Assembly (NCBI GenBank): GCA_022844105.1
Contig: JALHMJ010000004.1
Location: 124,001 to 188,000 of the forward strand
DNA from: Hyphomicrobium sp.
GTDB lineage: Bacteria > Pseudomonadota > Alphaproteobacteria > Rhizobiales > Hyphomicrobiaceae
Reading direction: 5' to 3'
Length of the DNA: 64,000 bases
Positions 15,119-40,381 of the stretch are shown here, piece by piece. Made by a program: the position numbers and the translations under genes. Under the pieces are notes generated by a model that did not search any database, was not told where the DNA came from, and saw only the letters and a list, made by a program, of their open reading frames with translations. The first letter of the stretch is position 1, and each line of letters begins with the position of its first letter.

Positions 15119-15202
15119 TCCGGGTCTTAGCCCAGCCCTATAGCCCGCGACTTGAGGTTAAGCTTAGCCCGGGCCGCGCTCCCGGCCCCGCAACACGTCG
15201 TC

Positions 15203-16891
15203 TCACCGCGACAGTCGCTGGTGAAAGCGCGCCGTGTGCGATTGCACGCGCGCCCCAGCCGGAGCATAAAGGCTCGCTTCCCCGCGGACGTGGTGGAACG
15301 GTAGACACACAGGACTTAAAATCCTGAGGCGGCAACGCCGTGTGGGTTCGAGTCCCACCGTCCGCACCAAATCATACTTACCGGCCTGAACCAGTCGGAG
15401 AAGCCTGAATGGATGGGCGATTCCGCCGGTTCGATAACCCACATTTCGCTGGTAGGGCACACAGTTCCCAAACAGCAGTTTTGGCACTGTTCGGCGGGCG
15501 GCGAGGTGGCCGCAATCCCATAGTTTTCGCGGGTTTGCGATGAAGTTGATGGCGGTTCGATAAGTCGAATCGAAGTCAACGGCGGCACGCGCGGGCTTTT
15601 GCATTTTTTCTTGCAGTTCGATCTTGCGGGCATGAAGGCTGCGCACCTGTTCTTCATAGGCTGCGATCACTCCGGCGTTGTCCGCATTGAGTAAGCGCTC
15701 CATGATATGCGCGCTCTTGCGCTCGATCTGCTGCAACTCGTCTTTGAGCGTGCGGCGCTGCTCGCTCTGGCTCTTGTCCAAACTCTTGCAGGTTTCACGC
15801 AGCATATCCTTGAGCGCGTCCAGTACCTTCTCGCTGGGCCGCAGGTGATCGAGGAGTTTCTCGAAATCACCCTCAATCGTTTCCTTGCGGATGGACTTAC
15901 GGCCATCGGCGCAGGTTTTGGTTTGACAGAAGTAGTAGGCATAGCGCCCATTGCGGCCCTTCGACCATGCCGCTGTCATGGGCCGCTCGCAACACGCGCA
16001 CGTAACGATGCCGCGCAAGGGGAATTCCTCGCGGGTGTCTTTCCGCGACGAAACCTTGCCCGGCTTGTTCAATCGTTCCAATACGCGCTGGTGCGTTTCG
16101 AAACTAATGAGCGGCGTGTGCTTGCCCTGCACCAGGCTGATGCCCCATTTGGGCGCGTCCATGTACCCGGCATAAATGGGCCGTTCCAGCAACTCGCGGA
16201 TTTTCTGTAAATGCACTTCACGGCTGCGCTTGCCCAGAAAATTGGGATAACGCTCCAGATGGCGCTGCACTTCCACCTGACTTGCGAAACGGCCTGACGC
16301 GAAACCTTCCAGAACCTCGCGGATCACTGACGCTTTGGGTTCATCCGGCACCAGAATCTTGCCCTGACCGGGGCTGCGCTCATAGCGATAGCCCAGAGGC
16401 TTGGCGAAAACCCAATAGCCATTCAGAAAGCGCGAGCGCATCCGGTTGATGACTTGCTCGGCGTTCTTCTGGCGCTGGTGCTGGGATACGGAGGCAAGAA
16501 GATTCTCGACAAGGATGCTGTCGGAATCTTCGCCGAATTCGATGGATGGGCTTTCCAGCTTGCCACCTGCGCCGCCAATGGCTGCACGTAACTCAATATG
16601 AGCTTGCAGGCCTCGCGCAAGGCGGCTGATGTCGTCAATAATGACAACATGGTCGGCTTTCGCACGGTGCTTGCGGAGATAGGCCAGCATGATGAGCATA
16701 GCGGGCCGGTCGATCACGCCACCCGATACGGCTTCGTCGCGGAAGACTTCAACAACGGAATATCCTTTGTGCCGCGCATATTCGCGGCAGCGGTTTTCCT
16801 GCGAGGCGAGGCCGTCACCTTCTTTCAATTGGGCTTTGCTGGATACGCGGCAGTAAATAACGGCCCGTGTGGTAGGCGCGGCAGTGCTCAT
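15203..16891 (-). CDS. Large serine recombinase (integrase of the island)
   Basis: 562 residues in the integrated form. The N-terminal resolvase domain begins AVIYCRVSSKAQ with the nucleophile Ser17 and includes IDDISRLARG. It is followed by the recombinase domain (about 170-290), a zinc ribbon (TCACCERPM with a later FCQTKTC) and a long coiled coil (about 355-435). This is the phiC31-like architecture that performs one-way integration. The last roughly 55 residues are read antisense through tRNA-Leu and the DNA beyond it, so the natural C-terminus depends on the att junction. It overlaps the preceding small gene by ATGA. Confidence 0.9.
   Translation of the reverse strand: MSTAAPTTRAVIYCRVSSKAQLKEGDGLASQENRCREYARHKGYSVVEVFRDEAVSGGVIDRPAMLIMLAYLRKHRAKADHVVIIDDISRLARGLQAHIELRAAIGGAGGKLESPSIEFGEDSDSILVENLLASVSQHQRQKNAEQVINRMRSRFLNGYWVFAKPLGYRYERSPGQGKILVPDEPKASVIREVLEGFASGRFASQVEVQRHLERYPNFLGKRSREVHLQKIRELLERPIYAGYMDAPKWGISLVQGKHTPLISFETHQRVLERLNKPGKVSSRKDTREEFPLRGIVTCACCERPMTAAWSKGRNGRYAYYFCQTKTCADGRKSIRKETIEGDFEKLLDHLRPSEKVLDALKDMLRETCKSLDKSQSEQRRTLKDELQQIERKSAHIMERLLNADNAGVIAAYEEQVRSLHARKIELQEKMQKPARAAVDFDSTYRTAINFIANPRKLWDCGHLAARRTVPKLLFGNCVPYQRNVGYRTGGIAHPFRLLRLVQAGKYDLVRTVGLEPTRRCRLRILSPVCLPFHHVRGEASLYAPAGARVQSHTARFHQRLSR
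15284..15369 (+). tRNA. tRNA-Leu (anticodon UAA), CCA encoded
   Basis: The acceptor stem GCGGACG pairs with CGTCCGC. The anticodon stem CAGGA/TCCTG encloses a loop with TAA, reading leucine codon UUA. The long variable arm GGCGGCAACGCC is typical of leucine tRNAs. The T arm is GTGGGTTCGAGTCCCAC, and the CCA end is encoded at 15367-15369. Foreign DNA begins immediately after it, so this is the likely insertion target, and the tRNA remains intact. Confidence 0.96.
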
Positions 16892-18495: not shown

Positions 18496-19536
18496 TCATG
18501 TGGTTGGCAACGAGAAGCTGCCAATAAGCGTCTTGAGCTGCTTTTCTCTCATAAAATAAACCGATCGCCGCGCACGCGTCATGGCAACGTAGAGCTTATT
18601 TCGAGTTTGAGGCTTTAACTGATCTAACTTATTGCCAGCAAAGTGCTTGTAAGTTTCATCGTTGAGAACAACACAAACATCGACGAAATCATTTTCGCCC
18701 TTCGATGCGCCCCAGTTTCTAGAAGCGCAATCGTACTTGCCCGCATCTCGGAAAAACAGCTTTACGGTCGCATGGTCCCGGTAGATATCTGCGATCAACT
18801 TATCATTATCAACAAATTCAACTTCGGTCGCATCTGTCCGCTCGGACTCAATACTGATACCGAGTTTTTCTTTAATGAACTCGCATATTGTAGGGCTGCA
18901 CCGATGGCTCTTGCCCAGGGTTTCTTGATCGGCCAGAAGCCCCAACTGTTTGACGCGGCTGATGTAGCCGGCAAAGCTCTCATGCAAGTTTTTATTGACG
19001 TTGCCGTCTCTGCTCGTATCGAAGGTATGCTGGTAAAAATCTCCGACAAAGATCGATGCGGATCGTGCATTTACGAAGTGCGTTAAGAAATTAAAATCAT
19101 GTGCAGCAAAGTCTTGCACTTCATCGATCATCGCTACGTCAAAATATTTGCTGATCCTGTTCTCGACGAGGCCTCCAAAGCCCTCGGAGTCGATGAACTT
19201 GGCGAGCCGGTTGGAGTATACTCGCCCAAACTTGTCGATGAAACGATCGAGCCCTGCGGCAAACCTATTTTGACATGGATCGAAAGTTAGGCCTTTGGCA
19301 TCTGTCGTGAACAGCATGAAAGGCTTGAAACAAAATCCGTACAGAAATGAAAAGTAGGTGAAGACATGAATGTTGGATGGCACGCATCCAAATTTTTCGA
19401 TGATCCGGCGCTTGATGTTACGCTCGTTGTTGTTTGTAAACGTGATGATAGCAAATCGCTCGTCGATGTTTAGGCGCTCGATGAGAAGGCGGGTCTTGCC
19501 AGACCCTGCAACTGCCAAAACTATGCGGTTATCCAT
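18496..19536 (-). CDS. Compact UvrD/PcrA-like superfamily 1 helicase (GajB-like)
   Basis: 346 residues, roughly half a normal UvrD helicase. The SF1 motifs appear in order: I VAGSGKT (9-15), Ia around ITFTNNNERN (31-40), II IDEVQD (137-142), III VGDFYQ (164-169), a motif V-like ASKGENDFVDV (277-287) and VI KLYVAMTRAR (314-323). The spacing leaves no room for full 1B/2B domains. It overlaps the OLD nuclease gene by 16 bases, so they are translated together. Pairing of an OLD-TOPRIM nuclease with a UvrD-like helicase is the Gabija anti-phage arrangement. Codon use is AT-rich compared with the flanks, suggesting transfer. Confidence 0.83.
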   Translation of the reverse strand: MDNRIVLAVAGSGKTRLLIERLNIDERFAIITFTNNNERNIKRRIIEKFGCVPSNIHVFTYFSFLYGFCFKPFMLFTTDAKGLTFDPCQNRFAAGLDRFIDKFGRVYSNRLAKFIDSEGFGGLVENRISKYFDVAMIDEVQDFAAHDFNFLTHFVNARSASIFVGDFYQHTFDTSRDGNVNKNLHESFAGYISRVKQLGLLADQETLGKSHRCSPTICEFIKEKLGISIESERTDATEVEFVDNDKLIADIYRDHATVKLFFRDAGKYDCASRNWGASKGENDFVDVCVVLNDETYKHFAGNKLDQLKPQTRNKLYVAMTRARRSVYFMREKQLKTLIGSFSLPTT

Positions 19537-21083
19537 TTCACTGCTCTCACAACATAGTCTGGACAGGTAAGCTCCTCATCTGCCTCCAACAGCGCAAGAG
19601 CCGCCTCTGTCTTGTTCTTCAGCATGTAATCTTGAGTAGTCAGAGTGCGTCTTCCCGCAGCAAATTTTTTCTCACAGAGTTCTTTGTTGTCCTGATAAAT
19701 GCAAATTTCAAAAGTGTGGCGATCGTTATCGGGATCAGCGAAAACATTGATGTTTGATCCAACATAGTCTGCGTAGCGATCCACGCAATTCACCTGATGG
19801 TCCATATCATTGTCGCGCAGAACTGCGACTTTTCCGCCCAAAATCTTAGCGATGTCGAGGTACCGCTTAAATGTTAGTCCATCAACTGCCATGATGTAGA
19901 CGCCTACATCATGCGGTTTGTTATCGGTGACCTGTTTGAATAGTCGATCCATGAGGATGTATTCTGCATCCCCTTCCACCAAGATGACTTTTTGAGATAG
20001 TGCGAAGTCCAATATCCCGTGATCCGGTGCTTTTAAGAAGAACTTCGCTGTATCCGAAGATAAATTCGCAAGCGTCATCGCCTTAACGCCCGAAGTGTGA
20101 AGAAGGATGGCGTTGCGTAAGTCCAGTCTTGATGCGATCAGGTTGCTGTGGGTCGCTATTATAAGCTGCTGATCGTCAGAGGCGCGTATTTTTCCAATCA
20201 GCCTGCTCATGTTGATGTGGCTTAAATGGTTTTCCGGCTCTTCCAGTAGAACGACGTCTAGCTTGTTATTATTTTTCGTCCTGCTCAGCGCAAAGTCGGT
20301 TTTTACAAAGCATTGGCGGCCTTTGCCGCGATTGTCGACTGGGATGTCATCCTCTAGCAGCGTCAGGTCGGTACGCAAATTAGTTTTTGTATCGCTCTTT
20401 ATTGAGAATGCGTACGAAGGCAAACGTTGATTAAGGCTTGCAAGGGCAGTCTGCCTGAAAGTCTGCTTCGATTTCCTGTATTCGTATTGATGTTTATTGT
20501 ACTCAGTGCCGACAATGTGGGCGTCATACATGCTGTTCACGTAATCTCGAACCGCATAGTCGCTGCCAATTTGGGCGGTGTCGATAACGATGTGCCTTAG
20601 AAATTTCTTATAGCCGCTGTAGCCGTCCCCTTGGAAGGTCGTGAATTTCACGGTGTAGTAGTCAAAGGGAAATATGGGGTCGTCGCTTTTTAGAATCTCC
20701 TTGATTTCCTCGCCTAGCGATTGATCAGGAGAGCATTCCAGCCGCAGTCCGTCATGCTCTTGCGACTTACAGTTGTTTTTTCCATTCAGTTGAAAATTGT
20801 TTTGTTCATTGAACCAAAGTTCAATGAACATGATCGGTAGATCGTTGTAATTCTTCTTAGAGGCCAAAAAAGCGCTGACAGCTTCAGCGCGAATGAGACG
20901 CTCAGCACCGATGGCTTCAAATTGACTTCGGCTACCACTCAGTACGAGGTTGATAGCTGTAAGGATGCTACTCTTCCCAGCCTCGTTCGCGCCGATTAGA
21001 ATGTTTAGAGATTTATTGAGCAAGAGCTCTAAATCATTAAATCGCTTGAAGTTATGGAGAATGACTTTTTCGATATATTTCAT
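19521..21083 (-). CDS. OLD-family ATPase with TOPRIM nuclease domain (GajA-like)
   Basis: 520 residues. The N-terminal ABC-type ATPase has Walker A GANEAGKS (31-38), Walker B LLEEPENHLS (279-288) and a switch His in IATHSN (309-314). The C-terminal TOPRIM domain has VEGDAE with Glu370, then RDND with Asp424/Asp426 and a Lys in KNKTEAAL (489-496). These are the metal and ATP residues of class 2 OLD nucleases, which cut DNA and form Gabija with a UvrD-like helicase. The helicase is directly downstream and overlapping. The gene is strikingly AT-rich. A role in defence is inferred from family and pairing, not shown. Confidence 0.87.
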   Translation of the reverse strand: MKYIEKVILHNFKRFNDLELLLNKSLNILIGANEAGKSSILTAINLVLSGSRSQFEAIGAERLIRAEAVSAFLASKKNYNDLPIMFIELWFNEQNNFQLNGKNNCKSQEHDGLRLECSPDQSLGEEIKEILKSDDPIFPFDYYTVKFTTFQGDGYSGYKKFLRHIVIDTAQIGSDYAVRDYVNSMYDAHIVGTEYNKHQYEYRKSKQTFRQTALASLNQRLPSYAFSIKSDTKTNLRTDLTLLEDDIPVDNRGKGRQCFVKTDFALSRTKNNNKLDVVLLEEPENHLSHINMSRLIGKIRASDDQQLIIATHSNLIASRLDLRNAILLHTSGVKAMTLANLSSDTAKFFLKAPDHGILDFALSQKVILVEGDAEYILMDRLFKQVTDNKPHDVGVYIMAVDGLTFKRYLDIAKILGGKVAVLRDNDMDHQVNCVDRYADYVGSNINVFADPDNDRHTFEICIYQDNKELCEKKFAAGRRTLTTQDYMLKNKTEAALALLEADEELTCPDYVVRAVKWITA

Positions 21084-21119: not shown

Positions 21120-21854
21120 TCATCGCGCGGCCTCTGCCGCGATGTGACCGGCGAAGCTGGTGACGAACGTCTTGAGGCTTGTCATATCGTCCAGTTCCGC
21201 ATAAGCACCATTCGTCGAAGCGGTGCGCGGCGAGGTGATGATGGCGGCAGCGGAATAGAGCTGCTCCTGCATAAGGCGCTGGCAGAGGATGTTGTATCGC
21301 TGTTGGTACGACGCCCCGGCGAACTCCTTGAATACGGGGAAATGCGGGGAGCGGTCGGTTACGGGCCTTCGTGACTCAGGCGCATCCTCGACCATCATCA
21401 TCCAGCCAACGAATGGGCGGGGTTGTTTCCCGAATGCACCCTCGCGATAGGCTGTCCAGAGATCATGTGCCGTTCCGATAGCTTCTTCGGTACGGTTGTT
21501 GAAATTATTGCCGAAGGATGGGCCGACCTGGCTTTTGAATTCGACGGCGGCGATGAGCCGTCCTTCGTTGATGACCACCAGATCCCATAGCTTGGTGGGA
21601 CGGAAATATCCGGGCAGGGTTACGACCGCGCGGCCCTGATGAATGTCGGCATGGCCGAGGCCGTTGTTGCGCACAAGATCGATAACCAGTGCAACGAAGC
21701 CATCCATGTTCTTTCCGGCGGTCACGCCAGCGCGTTCGCCAGCATCGATGTTGCCGGATTCAATTTGCTTCTGACGCGCCATCTCGCGGTTGCCCCAGAA
21801 GGCTTGAACCGCCTCGCGCGATTGTTTCTCATAATCTGCAAGATCGATCGCCAT
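21120..21854 (-). CDS. Type II restriction endonuclease, PaeR7I/XhoI-like
   Basis: A 244-residue nuclease resembling the PaeR7I family, whose known members cut CTCGAG. The central block [20 protein letters not shown] carries the PD-(D/E)xK-type catalytic residues (Asp, then Glu-x-Lys), followed by the family phrase [17 protein letters not shown]. It starts directly after the methyltransferase stop (TAGATG), so the two genes are one unit. Specificity for CTCGAG is inferred from the family. Confidence 0.85.
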
Positions 21855-23579
21855 CTAGTCTGTGTTCCCTTCGATGGCGGCTCGTTCGGCGGCTGTCAGG
21901 CCGTAGAGCTTGAAGACGGCCTTGTTGCAGGCGACTGTATCGCCGCGCTCGGCGGCGGCGATCAGTGCTTTGCGAACCGCAGGCGAGACAGCGGACCAAT
22001 GGGGAACCCGGATACGGCGCAAATACTGCGCCTGAAAGCGCATGTAGCCGCCGAGCATCCGGGTGGAATAGGTCGCAACAAACAAGCGGGCGATGCCTGA
22101 GAGCAGCACGGCCTGCATAGCCTTGAGATCCCAATCATCGGAGGTGATGAAATAGAGATTGTGATGAGGATAGAGCTTGCCTTCCTCGTACACGATATGG
22201 GCCTGTCCCTTGATGTCGGGGATGAGCAGCTTGGGCTTCGCGGCGATTGCCGGATAAATGCGATCAATCGTTCTGTACCAGCTGGCCGGCGACTTCTCGG
22301 CAACGTGGCGCTTGGCAATTAGCTCCTTTCGCGCTTCGAGATAGGCGCGGAGCTTGGGATACATCTTGAGATCCACAAGGCCGCCGTCATCCTTGAACGG
22401 GTTGATGACGCCGAAGCCGCGCCATGCGACGTGGCCGCCATTGATGTCGCGCGTCATGACCAGAGGGAGTTTGCGATCCGCTTCGACGTCAAGCTCGTCG
22501 AAAAGCCCGATGAAAGCCTTGTCGGCACCGGTGGCAACGCCGATGCCAACCTTGCAACCAGCTTCTTCGAGAGTGGGAAACGCGCTTTCCAATCGCCTGA
22601 CAACGGCCAGCTGGTCGAATGATTCAAGAATCCACGGTTCAGATCCCGAAGCCACCCCGTGTAGTTCGCGGACCCCGCTTTCAGGCGGCGGCACGGCTTT
22701 GCCTGTGAAGGCTTTGGCCAACTTCTTGAAGCCAGCTGCGCTGATTTCCGGGCGACGGGCAACGCGGGTGCTCTTGCCCCTTTCGCGGGCGATGATGGTG
22801 ATGGCAGGATAGGCGATCACATCGCTATGGAAGGCGGGGGTGTCCACCATGTCCACATAGGTGCGTAGATGAAACGATCCCGCCACCAACTTGCGGAGTG
22901 GCCCGCCATAACGATTTTTCATCCAGCGATCGGCGCAGATGAATCCGAGAACGCCGGCCTTGGATAGCTGCGCCAGCGAATGTTCGATGAACGGGACATA
23001 GAGATCGGCGCGGTCATAGATTGTGTGATAGCGCGAGCGGTACTCGGCCATAAGCACATCGGGAATGAGTTCCTGCCGGACATAAGGCGGGTTGCCGATC
23101 ACCACATCAAACTGATGTGGGAAGTCTTGCAGCAGAAAGTCGCCCTGCTTCAGCCATGCGTTTATAAGCTGGGCACACTGGGCAGCGTCAACGTCGGACG
23201 AGCGGAGCAACCTCAGCGTGGCGGCCTGCGCTTTGAAGAACGTCGCTTCGTGTAATTCAACGCCCCGGATTGCACCCGACAACACCCGGCCCATATCACG
23301 CGCAGGAATTTTGTGACGCTTGGCGGATTCTATGAGCCGGGCGATCGCAGGGAGCAGGAAGTCGCCGTCACCAAACGAAGGCTCCAGCAAGCGCAACTCA
23401 TGGAGCGGTCGATCAGCGGTGTAGCCCGACAGGTCAAGGATGAAGTCCACGACTTCTTTGCGAGTGAAGATTGCGCCACGTGCCTCGATCCCGGCGGTCG
23501 CGAGCGCCCTGACAGCCGCAGGAACCGGCGAGAGTTCGGGAAATGCGAGTTGCCGCGCTGTCGATGTTCTTGCCGCCAT
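21855..23579 (-). CDS. Type II DNA adenine-N6 methyltransferase, PaeR7I-like
   Basis: A 574-residue gamma-type methyltransferase. SAM motif I is in [16 protein letters not shown], the catalytic motif is [10 protein letters not shown], and a long C-terminal target-recognition part follows. It protects host DNA against the adjacent endonuclease. It starts at 23579 with a one-base overlap with the ribbon-helix-helix gene (TAATG), giving the order regulator - methyltransferase - endonuclease, which lets protection appear before cutting. Confidence 0.88.
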
Positions 23580-23797
23580 TATCGACCTCTCGCAATTCTG
23601 TTTCGAGAGATAGCACCGGCGGCATTGCTTTTATCGGCAGCGCTACGGTTTTGAACGAGATCGCTTACGGCACGACGGATGACCCACGCGACCGATACGT
23701 CATCGTCACGGGCGATCGCGCAGATCGTCCGATACGTCTGCTCGTCAAGGCTGACGGACAGGCGCGCGGTTTTCGGATTGGGAGATTGACGACTCAT
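23579..23797 (-). CDS. Ribbon-helix-helix (CopG-like) regulator of the R-M operon
   Basis: A 72-residue basic protein with the RHH pattern: a beta strand [13 protein letters not shown] followed by two helices ([24 protein letters not shown]). It is the first gene of the restriction-modification operon and overlaps the methyltransferase start by one base. A palindrome lies just upstream (23812-23828), fitting self-control of the operon. The ATG at 23797 has no Shine-Dalgarno; the upstream frame to 23845 would run across the palindrome. Confidence 0.7.
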
Positions 23798-23811
23798 GAA
23801 GTGATGATAGT

Positions 23812-23828
23812 TGCACCACTTTGGTGCA
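23812..23828 (-). promoter_or_regulatory. Palindromic operator candidate for the R-M operon
   Basis: TGCACCA-CTT-TGGTGCA is a perfect 7-bp inverted repeat 14 bases before the regulator's ATG. On the minus strand a possible -35 (TTGCCT) and -10 (TATCAT) flank it, so binding here would block RNA polymerase. The start point would fall about at the ATG, which suggests a leaderless message. Confidence 0.6.
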
Positions 23829-23916
23829 GGCAAGATTTTTCCCAATCCAATGCATCAAACCGCTGTGGGTATGTTCGCAAGATTTCAAATTGCCAGTCTG
23901 TCGGTCACCCTTGCGT

Positions 23917-24517: not shown

Positions 24518-24928
24518 ATGGTTGACACTTCGCACCATAATCTAGAGCTGGGCTTCTTTAATCGCTTCGTTGCATACGACTGCGATGACAAAAACGACGG
24601 TTTCGATGACGAAACCATTCAATGGTTTTGCCCGGTTGAGATGCAGATTGTGATTCGGCGACTGTGGTTCTTCGGCGGTAGCGCCTTTGGCATGGACATC
24701 GCGGAGGATCTTGGGGTCGGTAAGGGTTCTAATGGAAGCCGATGGGGCATCGTCGCGGGCTTCTCGCCTCGCGAAAGCAGCGACCTAGATGAGTGGCTAA
24801 CATTGCTGGCAAGAGATACTTGGCGAGGTTGCTTGGTTTCAATTTCCTACAGCATTCCAGAAACCGCGATCGAATTGTTCCTCGGCCCAGCCACGCCTAG
24901 TGGACCCACTCCACGCCTGCGCGTTTGA
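24518..24928 (+). CDS. Hypothetical protein
   Basis: A 136-residue acidic protein, not recognised (DCDDKNDGFDDETIQWFCP; VIRRLWFFGGSAFGMDI). Its composition is protein-like up to about residue 125. The last residues overlap the 3' end of the oppositely oriented resolvase gene, which may mean that the true C-terminus was altered when the resolvase gene was acquired. No signal peptide or membrane segment. Confidence 0.5.
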   Translation: MVDTSHHNLELGFFNRFVAYDCDDKNDGFDDETIQWFCPVEMQIVIRRLWFFGGSAFGMDIAEDLGVGKGSNGSRWGIVAGFSPRESSDLDEWLTLLARDTWRGCLVSISYSIPETAIELFLGPATPSGPTPRLRV

Positions 24929-25508
24929 ACCCGCGCGTTACGGTGGCGGGAGAAACCTTGTAGCGCTTTGCGACCTCGATGATTGGCAGGCCTTGCTGCA
25001 TGACCGCGCGATGGCCAGCGAGGATTGTGTCTATCGACAGGGATGGCGGGCGTCCTAGCGCTTTGCCGCGTTGCTTTGCGGCTGCAAGCCCTAGCGCCGT
25101 ATTTTCACTAATGATGTCGCGTTGGAATTCGGCGAAGGCGGCGAAGAGGTGATAGACGAGTTTGCCGCCGGGCGTAGTGGTGTTGATGCCTTCGGCCAGC
25201 GAGCAGAAATGGATGCCTTCGTTTTCGAAGCGCACCAGCAGGTCGGAGAGGTGCTGGACGGAACGACCAAGACGGTCGAGCTTGAGGACGACTAGAGCAT
25301 CGCCGCGCTTTAATGTCTTGAGCGCCTTATCGAGTCCGGGGCGGCTGGCTTTGCCGCCGCTGATGCCGTGATCTTTGAAGATGTGGTCGCACTGCGCAGC
25401 TTTAAGAGCATCGAGCTGCATGCGCAGTTTTTGATCTTGGGTGGAAACCCGCGCGTAGCCTATCCTGCGCCCTGTAACTTCGATGCTTGGGAAAAAGAAG
25501 GCGTTCAT
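24897..25508 (-). CDS. Small serine recombinase (resolvase/invertase family)
   Basis: A 203-residue resolvase of the Tn3/Hin type. The catalytic Ser22 is in IGYARVSTQDQ. Further marks are LDRLGRSVQHLSDLL, the long E-helix region FQRDIISENTALGLA, and a C-terminal helix-turn-helix (PIIEVAKRYKVSPATVTRGFKR). Such enzymes resolve dimers or invert segments. No res site pair or transposase is visible nearby, so its DNA target is unknown. Confidence 0.9.
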   Translation of the reverse strand: MNAFFFPSIEVTGRRIGYARVSTQDQKLRMQLDALKAAQCDHIFKDHGISGGKASRPGLDKALKTLKRGDALVVLKLDRLGRSVQHLSDLLVRFENEGIHFCSLAEGINTTTPGGKLVYHLFAAFAEFQRDIISENTALGLAAAKQRGKALGRPPSLSIDTILAGHRAVMQQGLPIIEVAKRYKVSPATVTRGFKRAGVEWVH

Positions 25509-29260: not shown

Positions 29261-29539
29261 ATGCGTCTATTTATTGCAACAGCCGTTCTATGCGCGGCGT
29301 TCATATTCAATCCGGCGTTCGCACAGGAAACGTCCAAGCAAGAAGCCGTGCGGATTGAGATGGATCAGGAGGCCAAAGTCTTCGTCTTCATCATCGACGA
29401 TGAGCCGGTCGCGCTGCTGGATAAACACGGAATGGAGATAGTCGAGCATCTTAACTACGGCGGCATGCTTACCGACAAGGGAAGAGAAAGCGCCCGCCGC
29501 GACATAGAACAGAAAAGAGGGGGTGCCGCCGATGAATAA
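29261..29539 (+). CDS. Small exported protein upstream of the fibre-like protein
   Basis: 92 residues with a signal peptide (MRLFIATAVLCAAFIFNPAFAQ, cut after AFA). The mature part is charged (FVFIIDDEPVALLDKHG; a basic tail). It is not recognised. ATG 29261 follows GGGGGAG. The stop overlaps the start of the next gene by eight bases, so the two exported proteins are made together and may interact. Confidence 0.6.
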   Translation: MRLFIATAVLCAAFIFNPAFAQETSKQEAVRIEMDQEAKVFVFIIDDEPVALLDKHGMEIVEHLNYGGMLTDKGRESARRDIEQKRGGAADE

Positions 29540-31346
29540 ATTCCTCCTCTCCCTTCTCGCAGCCATGGCGATAATTTCATCGGCCTACGCGGCTGAACCG
29601 TTGCCGGGTGATGCCTGCAGTGCTGCAAACAACCTTCAATTTACAAGTGGGCCGGAGGTATCCGGCGGTGGTGGTCATGCTATGCTCTGCGAGGGTGGGA
29701 CTTGGAAATCCATACTGAGCTTCAACAGCACCGCTGGTCTGACCAAGCTTGGCAGCCAGACTTGCGCGACCAATGAGATTCTTAAATTCAACGGCACCAC
29801 ATGGGTCTGCGCGGCGGATGCCAGCGGGATCAGCGGCCTGCCAACACTTACGTCAGCCAATATCTGGGTTGGTAACGCATCAAACGCCGCAACGGCTGTC
29901 GCCATGTCGGGCGATGCCACGCTTTCGAACGCGGGCGTACTAACGATTGGATCGAACGCCGTTGGCTCAGCGGAGATTACAGATGCCAGTGTTGCGCTGG
30001 CCGATTTGGCTGGGAACTCGGTCAACGCATCCAAGATCGTTGATGCCAGTATTGCCTTGGCCGATCTCTCGGCCACCGGAACGGCAAGTGCCACCACCTA
30101 TCTGCGCGGGGATAACACATGGACAACAGTTCCATCCGGCGCGGACAATCTCGGGAATCATACGGCGACACAAGCTCTAAACATGGGCGGTTTTAATGTG
30201 ACCGGGGCGGCACGAATACTGTCTGGCGGTTCTTCACCCAATCCGGTGAGCGGGATTGATACATTCGGTCTTATGGCGTCAGGCAGCTTTGGTGCCGGTA
30301 TTGGTCTGCAAGACGGAACTGGTGATTTCGGCCTGTGGCTGGATGGGACTGGTACGAATGCGCGGTTCGGGTTTGGCGCAAGCCTTGGTCCGCTGACGAC
30401 AGCCATGTCGCTCACCAACACCGGCACGGTATCGGCCACGACGTTCTCAGGATCAGGCGCATCGCTGACAGCACTTAACGCATCCAATCTTTCATCGGGC
30501 ACAGTTGCACCAGCGCGATTGGGAACCGGCACAGCCAACAGTTCCGTTTTTCTGCGCGGTGATGGGGCTTGGGCTGCGATAGCCGGTGACAACTTGGGTG
30601 CAGGCGGCACGACAACTGGACAAATCACAATCAACAACGGCTCGCCGACGATCTTTCTTCAAGACACTGATCAACGCTCGGCGATGCTGCACAACAACGG
30701 CAATCAGTTCTACTTGCTGACAGGGAGCGGTATAAACTCCGGCACCTGGGCGCTCAATGGCGGTGCTTGGCCCATTCAAGTTGATCTAACGTCCGATAAC
30801 ATCACCCTCGGCGGACAAGTCAATTTGGTTGAAGGGGCGCTTAGCCTCGGCACACAAGGAGTCACCAGTAGCGCAGGTACAGTGATCGACGGAAGCGGTG
30901 GTTGGCACCGCACGTATGGCGCTACTGGTTGGTATAACGGAACTTTCGGCGGCGGATGGCACATGTCGGACGCGACATGGATTCGATCGTACGGCGGCAA
31001 GTGGGTTTATACTGACACAGGAATGCGTGCTGACGGAAACGGCGTTCGCACCACGCAAGTTTGCGATGTAAATGGCGCAAATTGCAGAACTCCGGCCCAA
31101 CTTGCGGCGGGTGGCGGGGGCGGCATAACTGACCAAACCACAACGACCTGTACCACCGCTTTTTGGGGATACTCCACTTGTTCGACCCCTGCGTGTCCAG
31201 CTGGTTATTTTAGAAGTGGCTGTAGCGCCGTCGGCGGAGCAGGAGGGGGTTCTGGAGCATCTCCGAGTGGATCCAACGCGTGTCTTTGTACAAACGGCAC
31301 TACTGACGGGGTTCAAACCTCTTGCTATACATACTGTATGAAATAG
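29532..31346 (+). CDS. Exported tail-fibre/adhesin-like protein
   Basis: 604 residues with a signal peptide (MNKFLLSLLAAMAIISSAYA). Most of it is a low-complexity beta-rich Gly/Ser/Thr/Asn/Ala sequence with recurring phrases such as GDATLSNAGVLTIGS, ITDASVALADL / IVDASIALADL and TYLRGDNTWTTV / VFLRGDGAWAAI. This is the style of phage tail fibres and trimeric or pilus-tip adhesins. The last 70 residues are cysteine-rich (CTTAFWGYSTCSTPACPAG; CLCTNG). The signal peptide argues for a surface protein rather than a virion fibre. No other phage structural genes are present. Confidence 0.65.
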   Translation: MNKFLLSLLAAMAIISSAYAAEPLPGDACSAANNLQFTSGPEVSGGGGHAMLCEGGTWKSILSFNSTAGLTKLGSQTCATNEILKFNGTTWVCAADASGISGLPTLTSANIWVGNASNAATAVAMSGDATLSNAGVLTIGSNAVGSAEITDASVALADLAGNSVNASKIVDASIALADLSATGTASATTYLRGDNTWTTVPSGADNLGNHTATQALNMGGFNVTGAARILSGGSSPNPVSGIDTFGLMASGSFGAGIGLQDGTGDFGLWLDGTGTNARFGFGASLGPLTTAMSLTNTGTVSATTFSGSGASLTALNASNLSSGTVAPARLGTGTANSSVFLRGDGAWAAIAGDNLGAGGTTTGQITINNGSPTIFLQDTDQRSAMLHNNGNQFYLLTGSGINSGTWALNGGAWPIQVDLTSDNITLGGQVNLVEGALSLGTQGVTSSAGTVIDGSGGWHRTYGATGWYNGTFGGGWHMSDATWIRSYGGKWVYTDTGMRADGNGVRTTQVCDVNGANCRTPAQLAAGGGGGITDQTTTTCTTAFWGYSTCSTPACPAGYFRSGCSAVGGAGGGSGASPSGSNACLCTNGTTDGVQTSCYTYCMK

Positions 31347-34164: not shown

Positions 34165-35649
34165 ATGCACTCTACCGATTTTAACGAGCAGTATCGTTTC
34201 GGCAGCGCTGGCTGGGCCGATGAGCGCCAGATGCGCGGGGCCGGTCTGTTCGGCGGGCACGGCCTTCCCATCGGCTTCATGGGACGCAAATCTATTCATC
34301 TAGAAGGCGATGCGCCGCTCATTACCTTCGGCGGTGCTGGCACTGGCAAACTCACCACAGTGATCGGGCACGTGATGTGCACCGTCAAAGACCGCTCGAT
34401 GATTGTTCTCGATCCGCGCGGTGAGATCGCGGCCACGTTTATGCCCGCGCTGGCGCGGCACAGGATTGAAGCATTCCTTTGGAATCCTTATCGCTTGCAC
34501 GGGCTTCCGTCGCATCGCTGCAATCCGCTTGATCCCATCGATCCGCGCAAACCCACCTTCCACGCCGACTGCAAGCTGGTGGCGCGCGCGCTGGTGAGCG
34601 TGACCAGCAAATCGGATGGCAAATATTTTGAGCAGCGCGGCAGTGGCTGGGTTGAGGCGATTCTAAAGTTCGATGCGGAGGTGTTCGGGCACACGAACCT
34701 TGGCAATCTTATGCGCGTGATCAATGTCATTGAGGGCGATCTAACGAACTGGGCAACGTTTTTAGAGGCCATGCGCACCTCAACTTTCGACGACGTGCGC
34801 CGCACGGCGGGGGAGATGATCACCAAGCAGCAGGATTCCCCGCGCGAGTTTGGCTCGGTGATGGGGGAGATTTACGCAAGCCTGTCATTCCTTGACGATC
34901 CAACGTTGCGTGCTTCGCTGGAAAATCCGGATTTCTCGCTGGCCGATGTTTGCAATTCTTCCAGCCCCAAGATTGTTTTCCTGATGATCCCGGCGGAATA
35001 TCTGCATCAGAGTGCCGCCTGTCTGCGCCAGTTCTTCACGGCGTGCATGCTCTATAAATCCCGCGCGCCGGGTTCGCGGCGATTGCTGATGCTGATCGAT
35101 GAAGCCGCACAGCTCGGTTCGTTCCAAGCGCTACAGCAGCTTTACACCTATGGGCGCGGAATTGGCATTCAGCCTTGGACATTCTGGCAGGATATCGGCC
35201 AGATCAGTCATAATTTTGGAGCAAGCGGCACGGACACGTTTATGGCATCCTCGCAGATGCGTCAGTTTCTTGGCACGCGCGATTTGAATACAGCGCGGCT
35301 AATTTCCAACATGCTCGGCACCGAGACGCTGGAATACGATGACACGCGCCAGCAGGAAGAAGCTTCGCGCCAAAAGCGGCTCGCCGTGCAGCGCGCGCTG
35401 CAAGGAGAGGATATGCTTTCGGCTATGCTGGAGGCCGCGCATTTCTCAAAGGCCGCGCGGATGCGCACGAAGCAATCGCGCAAGCTGCTAACCGACGAAG
35501 AGGTGCTTTCGTTGGTCTTGGATAAGCAAATCATCTTTCTGTCTGGCCGGGAACCGCTTGCGGTGCTCGCGGATCGCAAGCCGTATTTCGAATGCCCAGA
35601 GCTGGCAGGCCTGTATCTGCCCAATCCGTATCACCCGCTAAAAAAATAG
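34165..35649 (+). CDS. Type IV coupling protein (TraG/VirD4 family)
   Basis: 494 residues. These ATPases bring the relaxase-DNA complex to a type IV secretion channel. The P-loop GGAGTGKLTT (56-65) has Leu where Ser or Thr usually follows the Lys. The Walker B LLMLIDEAAQL follows, with the later family segment YTYGRGIGIQPWTFWQD. The N-terminal membrane segments common in VirD4 are missing, so the protein is short and probably soluble, perhaps anchored by the small membrane proteins upstream. No VirB/Trb genes are in the window. Confidence 0.85.
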   Translation: MHSTDFNEQYRFGSAGWADERQMRGAGLFGGHGLPIGFMGRKSIHLEGDAPLITFGGAGTGKLTTVIGHVMCTVKDRSMIVLDPRGEIAATFMPALARHRIEAFLWNPYRLHGLPSHRCNPLDPIDPRKPTFHADCKLVARALVSVTSKSDGKYFEQRGSGWVEAILKFDAEVFGHTNLGNLMRVINVIEGDLTNWATFLEAMRTSTFDDVRRTAGEMITKQQDSPREFGSVMGEIYASLSFLDDPTLRASLENPDFSLADVCNSSSPKIVFLMIPAEYLHQSAACLRQFFTACMLYKSRAPGSRRLLMLIDEAAQLGSFQALQQLYTYGRGIGIQPWTFWQDIGQISHNFGASGTDTFMASSQMRQFLGTRDLNTARLISNMLGTETLEYDDTRQQEEASRQKRLAVQRALQGEDMLSAMLEAAHFSKAARMRTKQSRKLLTDEEVLSLVLDKQIIFLSGREPLAVLADRKPYFECPELAGLYLPNPYHPLKK

Positions 35650-39025: not shown

Positions 39026-40381
39026 CTATCGTTCTTGATCCAAATCCCGTTTTCGTCCGGCGCGCGGCGAGCGCTCTCCCTTGCGCAAGCGCTCGATGCG
39101 ATCTTCTGTTGATGGCGCAGGGCGAGCTTCTTGCGCGAATGCCCTCGACACTTTTGGTATAGCTTCGGGCTTCGCAATTTGCTTTGCCGCCTGCTGATCG
39201 GCGCGCAGTTCCTTGAACAGCGCGGCATGACGATCCCGCACGGCCTTGATCTGCGCTTGCAGGGCTTGACGGTCTTTCATCTGTGCCTCGATCAAGGTCT
39301 GGCGCTGTGCGCGGTCGCGGGCGAGTGCTTCGTAGGCTTCGCGCTCGTTCTGCTTTTGGGTTTCGGTGTGTTTGCCGGAAAGACGGCTCCACACGCCTTT
39401 CACGCCGCGATCAAACCGTGAGGCCCGCGCACTAGACTCTTTTGCCCACCTTTGTTCCTGCTTGGATCGTAGCTGCGAGCGCTCGTCCCGATGCTGCTGC
39501 ACCATAACAAGGCGCGATTGGTCGAGCGGACGCAGATCACGCCGTTTCTGTTCTTGAGCCTCTTGGCGCAGGCGCAGAAGATTGGAGCGGAGATCTTTGG
39601 CAAGCTGAGCCTTGCCTGCCTCCACACTGGGGAAAGCGTCGGGTGAGCCAAGGCGCTTTTCGATGTCCTTAGTTTTCTTTCCGGTATAGCGGGCCACGGA
39701 GAGCACTTCGCCTTCCGAAGTGATGGCGACATGGCCGCGCCTGTCGCCCTTGGCCAATGTTATCCCGCGCGCTTTCAGCGCCAGCACAAATGCGGCTTTG
39801 GAATCCGACACCGCCCAGCATTCCCGCATCACGACTTTAAGGTCGCGGGCATCAACGCCCATGCGCTTGGCTTGCTGCCATTCTTTCAGAGTGAAGTTGC
39901 GAGGATCGGCTTCGCGGCTATTCATAAGCCCGCGCGGCATCTTCCAGCCATTTTCCAGATACAGCTCGCGCGAAAGATCACGCATCTTGTTCTTGAAGAA
40001 GGGAAGGTTTTTAGCCGTCATGGTTTCCGCATCAATTCGGCTCCAGACGGCATGGGCATGGCGGCGGCCTTCCTTCTCGTGAAAGACCACAATTCTTGGC
40101 TGGTCTTTCAACCCATTCTTTTCTTCAATACGCGCGATAGCGTTTTCAAACACATCAACGCCCACGCGCTCTAGTGGCGGCGGATTGAGCGATACGGAAA
40201 ACAGGAACTGCTTGCAGCGCGTGCCTTTGCTGACGGCATAGGCTTCTTTCAGCGCGGCAACGATGTCATCCGAAACAAAGCCCCGGATTTCATGCACTTC
40301 CACGTGTTCATTGTCCTCCATCTTCATCAGATGCAGACCGAGCTGCTTGCCGCCCCCGCGCTGTGATGCTTTGAGGATCAT
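39026..40381 (-). CDS. Relaxase / mobilization nuclease
   Basis: 451 residues. Relaxases nick oriT and carry the DNA strand into the recipient. The three-His metal site is visible as HEKEGRRHAHAVW (His101, His108, His110). The N-terminal ILKASQRGGGKQLGLHLMK and RGFVSDDI are typical of a relaxase group common in alphaproteobacterial elements. The last 180 residues are a charged coiled coil. The catalytic Tyr is not certain; Tyr48 is a candidate. It lies six bases downstream of the MobC-like gene on the same strand. Confidence 0.88.
   Translation of the reverse strand: MILKASQRGGGKQLGLHLMKMEDNEHVEVHEIRGFVSDDIVAALKEAYAVSKGTRCKQFLFSVSLNPPPLERVGVDVFENAIARIEEKNGLKDQPRIVVFHEKEGRRHAHAVWSRIDAETMTAKNLPFFKNKMRDLSRELYLENGWKMPRGLMNSREADPRNFTLKEWQQAKRMGVDARDLKVVMRECWAVSDSKAAFVLALKARGITLAKGDRRGHVAITSEGEVLSVARYTGKKTKDIEKRLGSPDAFPSVEAGKAQLAKDLRSNLLRLRQEAQEQKRRDLRPLDQSRLVMVQQHRDERSQLRSKQEQRWAKESSARASRFDRGVKGVWSRLSGKHTETQKQNEREAYEALARDRAQRQTLIEAQMKDRQALQAQIKAVRDRHAALFKELRADQQAAKQIAKPEAIPKVSRAFAQEARPAPSTEDRIERLRKGERSPRAGRKRDLDQER

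Follow-up and report, generated by a model that had tools for sequence, protein, structure and literature searches.

A compact Gabija-like gene pair with a helicase lacking domain 2B in a candidate mobile element of Hyphomicrobium sp.

The analysed window is a stretch of 64,000 nucleotides from Hyphomicrobium sp. (assembly GCA_022844105.1, contig JALHMJ010000004.1, positions 124,001 to 188,000 of the forward strand). It contains two overlapping genes that resemble gajA and gajB, encoding the nuclease and the helicase of the Gabija defence system. The helicase, of superfamily 1A (SF1A), is short, and its fourth subdomain, 2B, is missing.

18496..19536, minus strand: gajB-like gene, 346 amino acids (aa), SF1A helicase core with 1A, 1B and 2A, no 2B
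19521..21083, minus strand: gajA-like gene, 520 aa, ABC ATPase and TOPRIM domains and a C-terminal helical stretch
19521..19536, minus strand: overlap of gajA and gajB, 16 bases

Both open reading frames (ORFs) and their overlap were found exactly where the original prediction, made from the letters of the window, had placed them. They are free of internal stops and have one match each within their own genome. Among 18 other short loci whose overlap was determined, 11 also have 16 bases and the remaining seven 4-23 bases; the length varies with the start codon chosen.

Pfam domains AAA_15 and OLD-like TOPRIM were found in the 520 aa protein, and UvrD-helicase in the 346 aa protein. The top PADLOC matches are GajA PDLC00102 (4.6e-109, 363 bits, residues 3-517 of 520) and GajB PDLC00148 (6.1e-54, residues 1-331 of 346), followed for the helicase by PDLC00140 (2.3e-45). 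These GajB profiles have only 369 and 365 positions, and the GajA profiles PDLC00102 and PDLC00098 have 532 and 534. Thus the short helicase form is already filed as Gabija, and its presentation as something new was not borne out, the form being common on plasmids as well. PADLOC profiles for the systems of Doron were built from retrieved sequences of those systems (PMC8565338). The Doron/PADLOC definition of Gabija, that is, GajA and GajB side by side, covers the pair, with near full-length matches, the same strand and the 16-base overlap. Domain 2B is outside this definition, whose GajB profiles include those of 365-369 positions. Judged by sequence, the PADLOC GajA and GajB profiles of this size describe the family that holds this pair. 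The helicase of the window is a divergent member, scoring 180 bits with the PADLOC GajB profile versus 468 and 393 bits in two other genomes.

The 520 aa protein contains a Walker A motif GANEAGKS starting at G31 and including K37, the TOPRIM acidic residues E370, E374, D424 and D426, and, in the C-terminal helical stretch, E459 and K491. Walker A, Glu370 and Asp424/Asp426 had been pointed out originally, and G31, K37, E370, D424 and D426 proved invariant in an alignment of 21 GajA rows. Residues E370, D424, D426, E459 and K491 are identical in all 36 short GajA proteins and in the mid-size GajA. The column of E459 contains aspartate in the nine long GajA of the same alignment, and the late Glu and Lys columns are variable in the three Old-type rows. 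Inserted helices (approximately 175-219) occupy the place of the GajA/OLD dimerisation domain. The structure model of the protein (pLDDT 87.7) has helices between 458 and 519.

A profile of the C-terminal part of GajA (12 rows) matches the Class 2 OLD nucleases 6njv (9.1e-7) and 6nk8 (2.5e-5) of Xanthomonas and Burkholderia nearly to their ends, the helical domain included. It matches the solved GajA at 1.5e-6 over the TOPRIM part, and the Class 1 OLD nuclease 6p74 is not listed at E 0.01. In this match E459 and K491 fall on the late Glu and Lys of the Xanthomonas enzyme. The Burkholderia enzyme has E508 and K562 at the corresponding places, in addition to E400, D455 and D457 (PMC6755086, PMC7049728). 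Thus TOPRIM is followed by a helical domain with late Glu and Lys as in Class 2 OLD, although the helical region is shorter, with 32 residues from E459 to K491 versus 54 in the Burkholderia enzyme. The other feature of Class 2, a UvrD-like helicase gene in tandem, is present as well.

Candidates other than GajA were rejected for the 520 aa protein. A retron (Class 3 OLD) or PARIS ATPase was discarded, as PADLOC AriA scores 78 bits against 363 for GajA among the best 25 of 143 matches. The NCBIfam retron Ec78 PtuA and retron Eco8 effector models score 44 and 18 bits, with cut-offs of 500 and 250. An isolated single gene, as in Class 1 OLD, is ruled out by the tandem helicase here and in 19 of 20 loci on viral contigs.

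Residues K14, D138, Q169, R212, K279 and R321 of the helicase, which we take to represent motifs I, II, III, IV, V and VI, respectively, are identical in all 37 short helicases and in all ten long GajB, in agreement with the claim that the 346-residue protein keeps motifs I-VI. An alignment of 54 helicases (37 short, one mid-size, ten long GajB, six PcrA/UvrD-type) gave the spacing of conserved residues. Between R212 and K279, the place of the 2B insertion, there are 67 residues in the window, 67-84 in the short forms, 159 in the mid-size GajB, 241-256 in the long GajB, and 250-272 in the PcrA/UvrD type. Between F64 and D138, the place of 1B, the numbers are 74 in the window, 74-103 in the short forms, 102 in the mid-size GajB, 68-134 in the long GajB and 116-129 in the PcrA/UvrD type. 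Thus 2B is absent and a 1B of GajB size is kept. The original prediction had allowed no room for full 1B and 2B domains, which is correct for 2B and not for 1B.

In the structure model of the helicase (pLDDT 88.9) the 1B segment consists mostly of helices. Domain 2B is replaced by a loop of about ten residues, roughly 262-271, joining strands 257-261 and 272-274. The model aligns with Rep 1uaa over 313 of 346 residues (Z 23.2, 3.4 A). In a profile search of the PDB, Rep (67.4 bits) and GajB (66.9 bits) come first, GajB having the longest single stretch among the three alignments shown. The pattern F-x(6)-[KR]PF at the start of 1B (F64-F73) aligns with GajB of Bacillus cereus (8sm3). The helix before motif II, approximately 121-131, aligns, in the profile alignment only, with the 1B helix of B. 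cereus GajB bearing V147 and Q150, with V147 at an aligned position and Q150 in a gap. These two residues contact GajA, and mutation of this contact disrupted the complex and markedly reduced defence (PMC10781630). In B. cereus, GajA binding lies in the N-terminal half of GajB and not in its C-terminal region (PMC10822852), so loss of 2B need not break the complex. A GajB without 2B was not found described in the Gabija literature searched, most subscription papers and all supplements being outside reach.

The original prediction raised the possibility that the short helicases make a clade. In the tree of the same 54 helicases all 37 short forms (337-385 aa) are separated from the rest by a branch supported at 100/99, which is kept at 100/99 when only columns filled in 70% of the rows are used, which removes 2B. 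Rooting on the PcrA/UvrD type gives the order (long, (mid-size, short)). This rooting is an assumption; if it holds, 2B would have been lost secondarily in the short form. NCBIfam types the six outgroup helicases as PcrA/UvrD/Rep, with all scores under the equivalog cut-offs. The GajA tree contains 36 short, one mid-size and nine long GajA and three Old-type proteins, two of the latter typed as Class 1 solely by a best PADLOC match to Old (178-188 bits, part of the protein). Here short and mid-size GajA group together (99/96), separately from the long GajA and the Old-type proteins. The nuclease thus does not group with the three Old-type proteins, and its best PADLOC match is GajA and not AriA; a grouping with lone Class 1 OLD nucleases or with PARIS- or retron-type ATPases would have spoken against a Gabija variant.

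Distances between GajA proteins correlate with those between GajB proteins (r = 0.96, 33 pairs; none of 2,000 shuffles was as high), with identities as low as 16% among the paired rows. This correlation demonstrates inheritance of the two genes as a unit, not contact of their products. The 33 pairs are the 37 helicase rows minus L046, L038, L006 and L007, which have no GajA mate. Dropped rows were L049 (a near-copy of L046), L079 and L090 (partial), GajA of L038 and L060 (split frames), GajA of L006 and L007 (cut by the locus end; L107 stands in for L006), and L110 (no usable gajA adjacent). L052 is without GajB (the contig ends), and L111 is in the helicase tree only, as the annotation divides its gajA into two genes. 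In L038 and L060, on a contig shared with L046, gajA lies in two reading frames and the short gajB is open.

One explanation of the small helicase is that a normal GajB was shortened here and is decaying. It is clearly shorter than the solved GajB, gajA is split in the two loci just mentioned, and some plasmid matches of gajB are in two or three pieces. However, the six motif residues are all kept in the 37 short helicases in spite of the low identities, the missing segment corresponds to one internal domain, and no full-length close relative, which the original prediction had named as the sign of a remnant, was found among the loci examined. We regard such a remnant as highly improbable, the least probable of the explanations weighed here.

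Taken together, the near full-length GajA and GajB matches, the Class 2 OLD catalytic residues and the single short-helicase clade agree with the minimal Gabija variant that was originally proposed. The pair probably belongs, as a working system, to a compact Gabija lineage, with predicted nuclease activity, complex formation and phage defence. Several observations weigh against this. Firstly, the PADLOC labels rest on lists of predicted systems, not on tests of the short subgroup. Secondly, the short GajA clade alone has support of only 78/63, and the GajA tree contains two long branches (P2 Old and the mid-size row). Thirdly, the solved GajB 8sm3 fits the helicase model less well than Rep (291 residues, Z 15.8, 8.0 A) and is low in two structure-search lists (ranks 23 and 49); domain orientation in the model is probably the cause of the large rmsd. 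Fourthly, whole B. cereus GajB showed no unwinding and is without the UvrD elements for unwinding (PMC10681800). Finally, with 520 aa the nuclease is under the usual Class 2 length, and VIA-align puts its model nearer to Class 1 OLD 6p74 (Z 21.4, 408 aligned residues) than to the solved GajA (8tjy, Z 18.1, 385 residues; 8sm3, Z 17.8, 434 residues).

The last point raises the possibility of a Class 1 OLD nuclease standing by chance beside a small unrelated SF1 helicase. The whole-length profile of 21 GajA rows, compared with the PDB, practically ties the solved GajA (66.0 bits, top) with 6p74 (64.8 bits), and the size of the protein is also Class 1-like. On the other hand, Foldseek ranks 8sm3 first and 6p74 third. 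In view of these mixed rankings, the OLD classes are not told apart by fold or by overall sequence. The C-terminal sequence does tell them apart, and it places the 520 aa protein, at the level of sequence, with the Class 2 catalytic set, whose late Glu and Lys are not conserved in the three Old-type rows. The C-terminal profile, which matches Class 2 structures and GajA and not 6p74 at E 0.01, the grouping with the mid-size GajA, and the overlap and co-inheritance with the helicase all speak against a chance neighbourhood, which is therefore very unlikely.

Among the systems known, the Gabija of B. cereus VD045 (GajA 578 aa, GajB 494 aa; PDB 8sm3, 8j4t, 8jqb) has the same gene order, an ABC ATPase and TOPRIM protein with the same acidic residues, and an SF1A helicase with the same motifs. 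The differences are as follows. VD045 GajB has a 2B domain at 306-416 (PMC10822852), and as its architecture comprises four subdomains (1A, 1B, 2A, 2B), the pair of the window is not filed as VD045-type. In the VD045-type assembly GajA and GajB form a 4:4 complex. The GajA of the window is 58 aa shorter; the shortening was located only relative to the mid-size L096 (573 aa), where 40 of the 53 missing residues are between Walker A and Walker B, in the ATPase/dimerisation stretch. The VD045 genes are one nucleotide apart (PMC8136825), whereas here they overlap. Another close system is a pair on F plasmids of Enterobacteriaceae, annotated 'AAA family ATPase / helicase UvrD' (e.g. L036), with approximately 44% identity over 97-100% of both proteins and the same 16-base overlap, but on another element with other neighbours (an IncF plasmid with ccdAB and vapBC, the pair following vapBC). 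Class 1 OLD proteins (P2 Old, Thermus 6p74) share the overall fold and the E/DxD site, but are encoded by a lone gene.

The short helicase is frequent on plasmids. By tblastn it has a match in 1,806 of 72,556 plasmid records (E 1e-5), 1,755 of them at a coverage of at least 80% and all under 60% identity, mainly in Klebsiella (824) and Escherichia (663). Of 5,426 complete E. coli genomes, 769 contain a match to the L036 allele (732 at a coverage of at least 80%), and 780 of its 790 places are on plasmids. On Enterobacteriaceae plasmids the compact pair is annotated as an ATPase or nuclease and a helicase, not as Gabija (ten rows listed for E. coli). The compact pair may therefore be more frequent as a defence system than reports suggest. 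Streptococcus, Lactiplantibacillus, Lactococcus and Kurthia plasmids match, over 97-99%, a compact GajB taken from a record labelled Listeria phage (unverified by the depositor). In a record of this label (L042, Listeria phage LM 4-11-1, unverified) an ORF encoding a 793 aa helicase-like protein, UvrD-like by eye, stands directly before compact gajAB. In the viral contigs, 20 loci with a whole short gajA were found; the short helicase adjoins in 19, and the 20th contig ends there.

Among 398 genomes drawn from the phylum of the window, 12 match the short-helicase profile at 1e-20: ten full short helicases (that of the window included), one fragment near a contig start and one mid-size GajB. 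The helicase occurs in none of the 59 other genomes of the genus, family and order (1/60 with its own genome), consistent with its acquisition by transfer. When the class was searched with a PADLOC GajB profile, matches came from 372 of 385 genomes and from 12 of the 14 controls, as the profile also catches UvrD-type helicases; only the genome of the window and two others (G319, G311) reach about 180 bits or above, the next best scoring 56. Three weak matches (27-33% identity, parts of the helicase) were obtained when genome contigs were searched with a single sequence. The Old profile matches two of 142 genomes at 1e-30, and the PADLOC GajB profile PDLC00120 one of 249 at the same threshold; the protein found with the latter has no plasmid match by tblastn at 1e-10.

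An alternative reading is a sister system of common ancestry with Gabija but different action. For example, it might serve conjugative elements against other plasmids or in competition between plasmids, or its helicase might be a constitutive motor that supplies the nuclease with DNA. The deep split of the short helicases from long GajB, the location of the E. coli copies, and the link to plasmids are consistent with it, the plasmid records numbering 50 for a long GajB query (E 1e-15) against the above 1,806. The contrast is rough, as the long query is a single sequence, so that long Gabija is understated, and the collection is rich in Enterobacteriaceae. However, gene order, active sites and profile matches are the same as in Gabija. 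Moreover, in a Gabija from a lactic acid bacterium, GajA was reported to be a non-specific nuclease and the pair to protect E. coli from both plasmid uptake and phages, T5 more than T7 (PMC13304284). No protein lengths being found for it, that system is not counted here as compact. A sister system seems improbable, though less so than the remnant or the chance neighbourhood.

The pair of the window is in a region of lower GC content, together with the following features.

15203..16891, minus strand: large serine recombinase (Resolvase, Zn ribbon), presumed integrase of the element
15284..15369, plus strand: tRNA-Leu (taa), left edge of the lower-GC element
21120..21854, minus strand: XhoI-type restriction endonuclease, 244 aa (2.4e-101), ending 36 bases before gajA
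21855..23579, minus strand: type II N6-adenine methyltransferase (Eco57I/TaqI_C), 574 aa, presumed partner of the XhoI-type enzyme
23579..23845, minus strand: ribbon-helix-helix protein, 88 aa, one-base overlap with the methyltransferase
34165..35649, plus strand: VirD4/TraG-type coupling protein of the element
39026..40381, minus strand: MobA/VirD2-type relaxase of the element

From the tRNA-Leu gene at 15284 to approximately 41 kb the GC content is 54.6%, the flanks having 62-63%. The gajAB genes themselves have 46-47%, so their description as strongly AT-rich holds relative to the flanks. The proposed location on a mobile element agrees with these genes: a serine recombinase at a tRNA gene, a coupling protein and a relaxase suggest an integrative, mobilizable element. 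The tRNA-Leu gene is the probable integration site. The recombinase reading frame runs through the complement of this gene, and the integrase would end in tRNA-derived residues. No 14-mer of the tRNA region (15150-15450) recurs beyond 17000 in the window, and thus no right attachment site was found; the right border is placed by GC content only.

The restriction system noted next to the pair is real, lying directly upstream. The restriction endonuclease, methyltransferase and ribbon-helix-helix genes and gajAB have the same direction and gaps of at most 36 bases, which looks like one transcript, possibly regulated by the ribbon-helix-helix protein. Scans for promoters and terminators gave no clear excess over chance (8 vs 5.0 +/- 2.3 and 9 vs 7.7 +/- 2.7). 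The restriction genes have no relative in 108 other loci, L036 included; 57 of the 108 are short-Gabija locus ids, including overlapping fetches. Many of the 108 loci are only a few kb long (1.8-11.6 kb for short Gabija), and a more distant restriction gene would escape. This lack of relatives and the difference in GC content (58-59% for the restriction genes) speak against the restriction-modification genes as a functional partner of the pair, within the reach of these loci. Elsewhere in the element, 24897-25508 encodes a second, small serine resolvase/invertase, and 29523-31346 a 607 aa protein, which by eye has a signal-like start, stretches rich in Gly, Ser and Thr, and an end rich in Cys. 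The latter has no Pfam match at 0.001 and is perhaps a tail-fibre or surface protein.

In the Gabija of B. cereus and Pseudomonas aeruginosa, GajA forms the core of the complex, GajB is docked on its ATPase domain, and both are needed for defence (PMC10781630, PMC10822852, PMC12407980). For the P. aeruginosa PA14 system, DNA ends that RecBCD does not hold were proposed as the target (PMC12407980). We infer the same working mode for the compact pair by analogy. The ABC-ATPase body of GajA would assemble into the complex core and hold a two-metal TOPRIM nuclease with E370, E374, D424, D426, E459 and K491. The SF1A GajB without 2B would dock with its 1A/1B half on the GajA ATPase domain. On sensing DNA ends or single strands and hydrolysing ATP, it would license GajA to nick and degrade invading DNA.

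Domain 2B is autoinhibitory in Rep-type helicases, so its loss may give an uninhibited translocase or NTPase. Indeed, in Rep without 2B unwinding is activated and displacement of bound proteins weakened (PMC13238157, PMC6158625). By this analogy autoinhibition may have been lost in compact GajB. On the other hand, as whole B. cereus GajB has no helicase activity, a release of autoinhibition may be moot and the loss of 2B neutral. A stronger version holds that compact Gabija is a mechanistically separate subtype, in which GajB is a natural uninhibited motor feeding substrate to GajA; this is unlikely, if somewhat less so than a sister system. As part of this unlikely reading GajB would translocate or unwind from DNA ends, as a natural counterpart of Rep without 2B and unlike the larger B. 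cereus GajB, for which no unwinding was seen.

The pair is thus ordinary in kind and informative in detail, being a divergent member of a compact lineage already labelled Gabija by PADLOC. GajB of B. cereus is helicase-like, yet no unwinding was seen with it (PMC10681800). A lineage in which evolution has removed 2B offers a direct comparison for GajB function, and the compact form is common, as illustrated by the single allele covered to at least 80% in 732 of the 5,426 complete E. coli genomes. What deserves following up is that 2B is naturally absent. If compact pairs still defend, 2B would be dispensable for Gabija, and the helicase core with 1B would carry the essential role.

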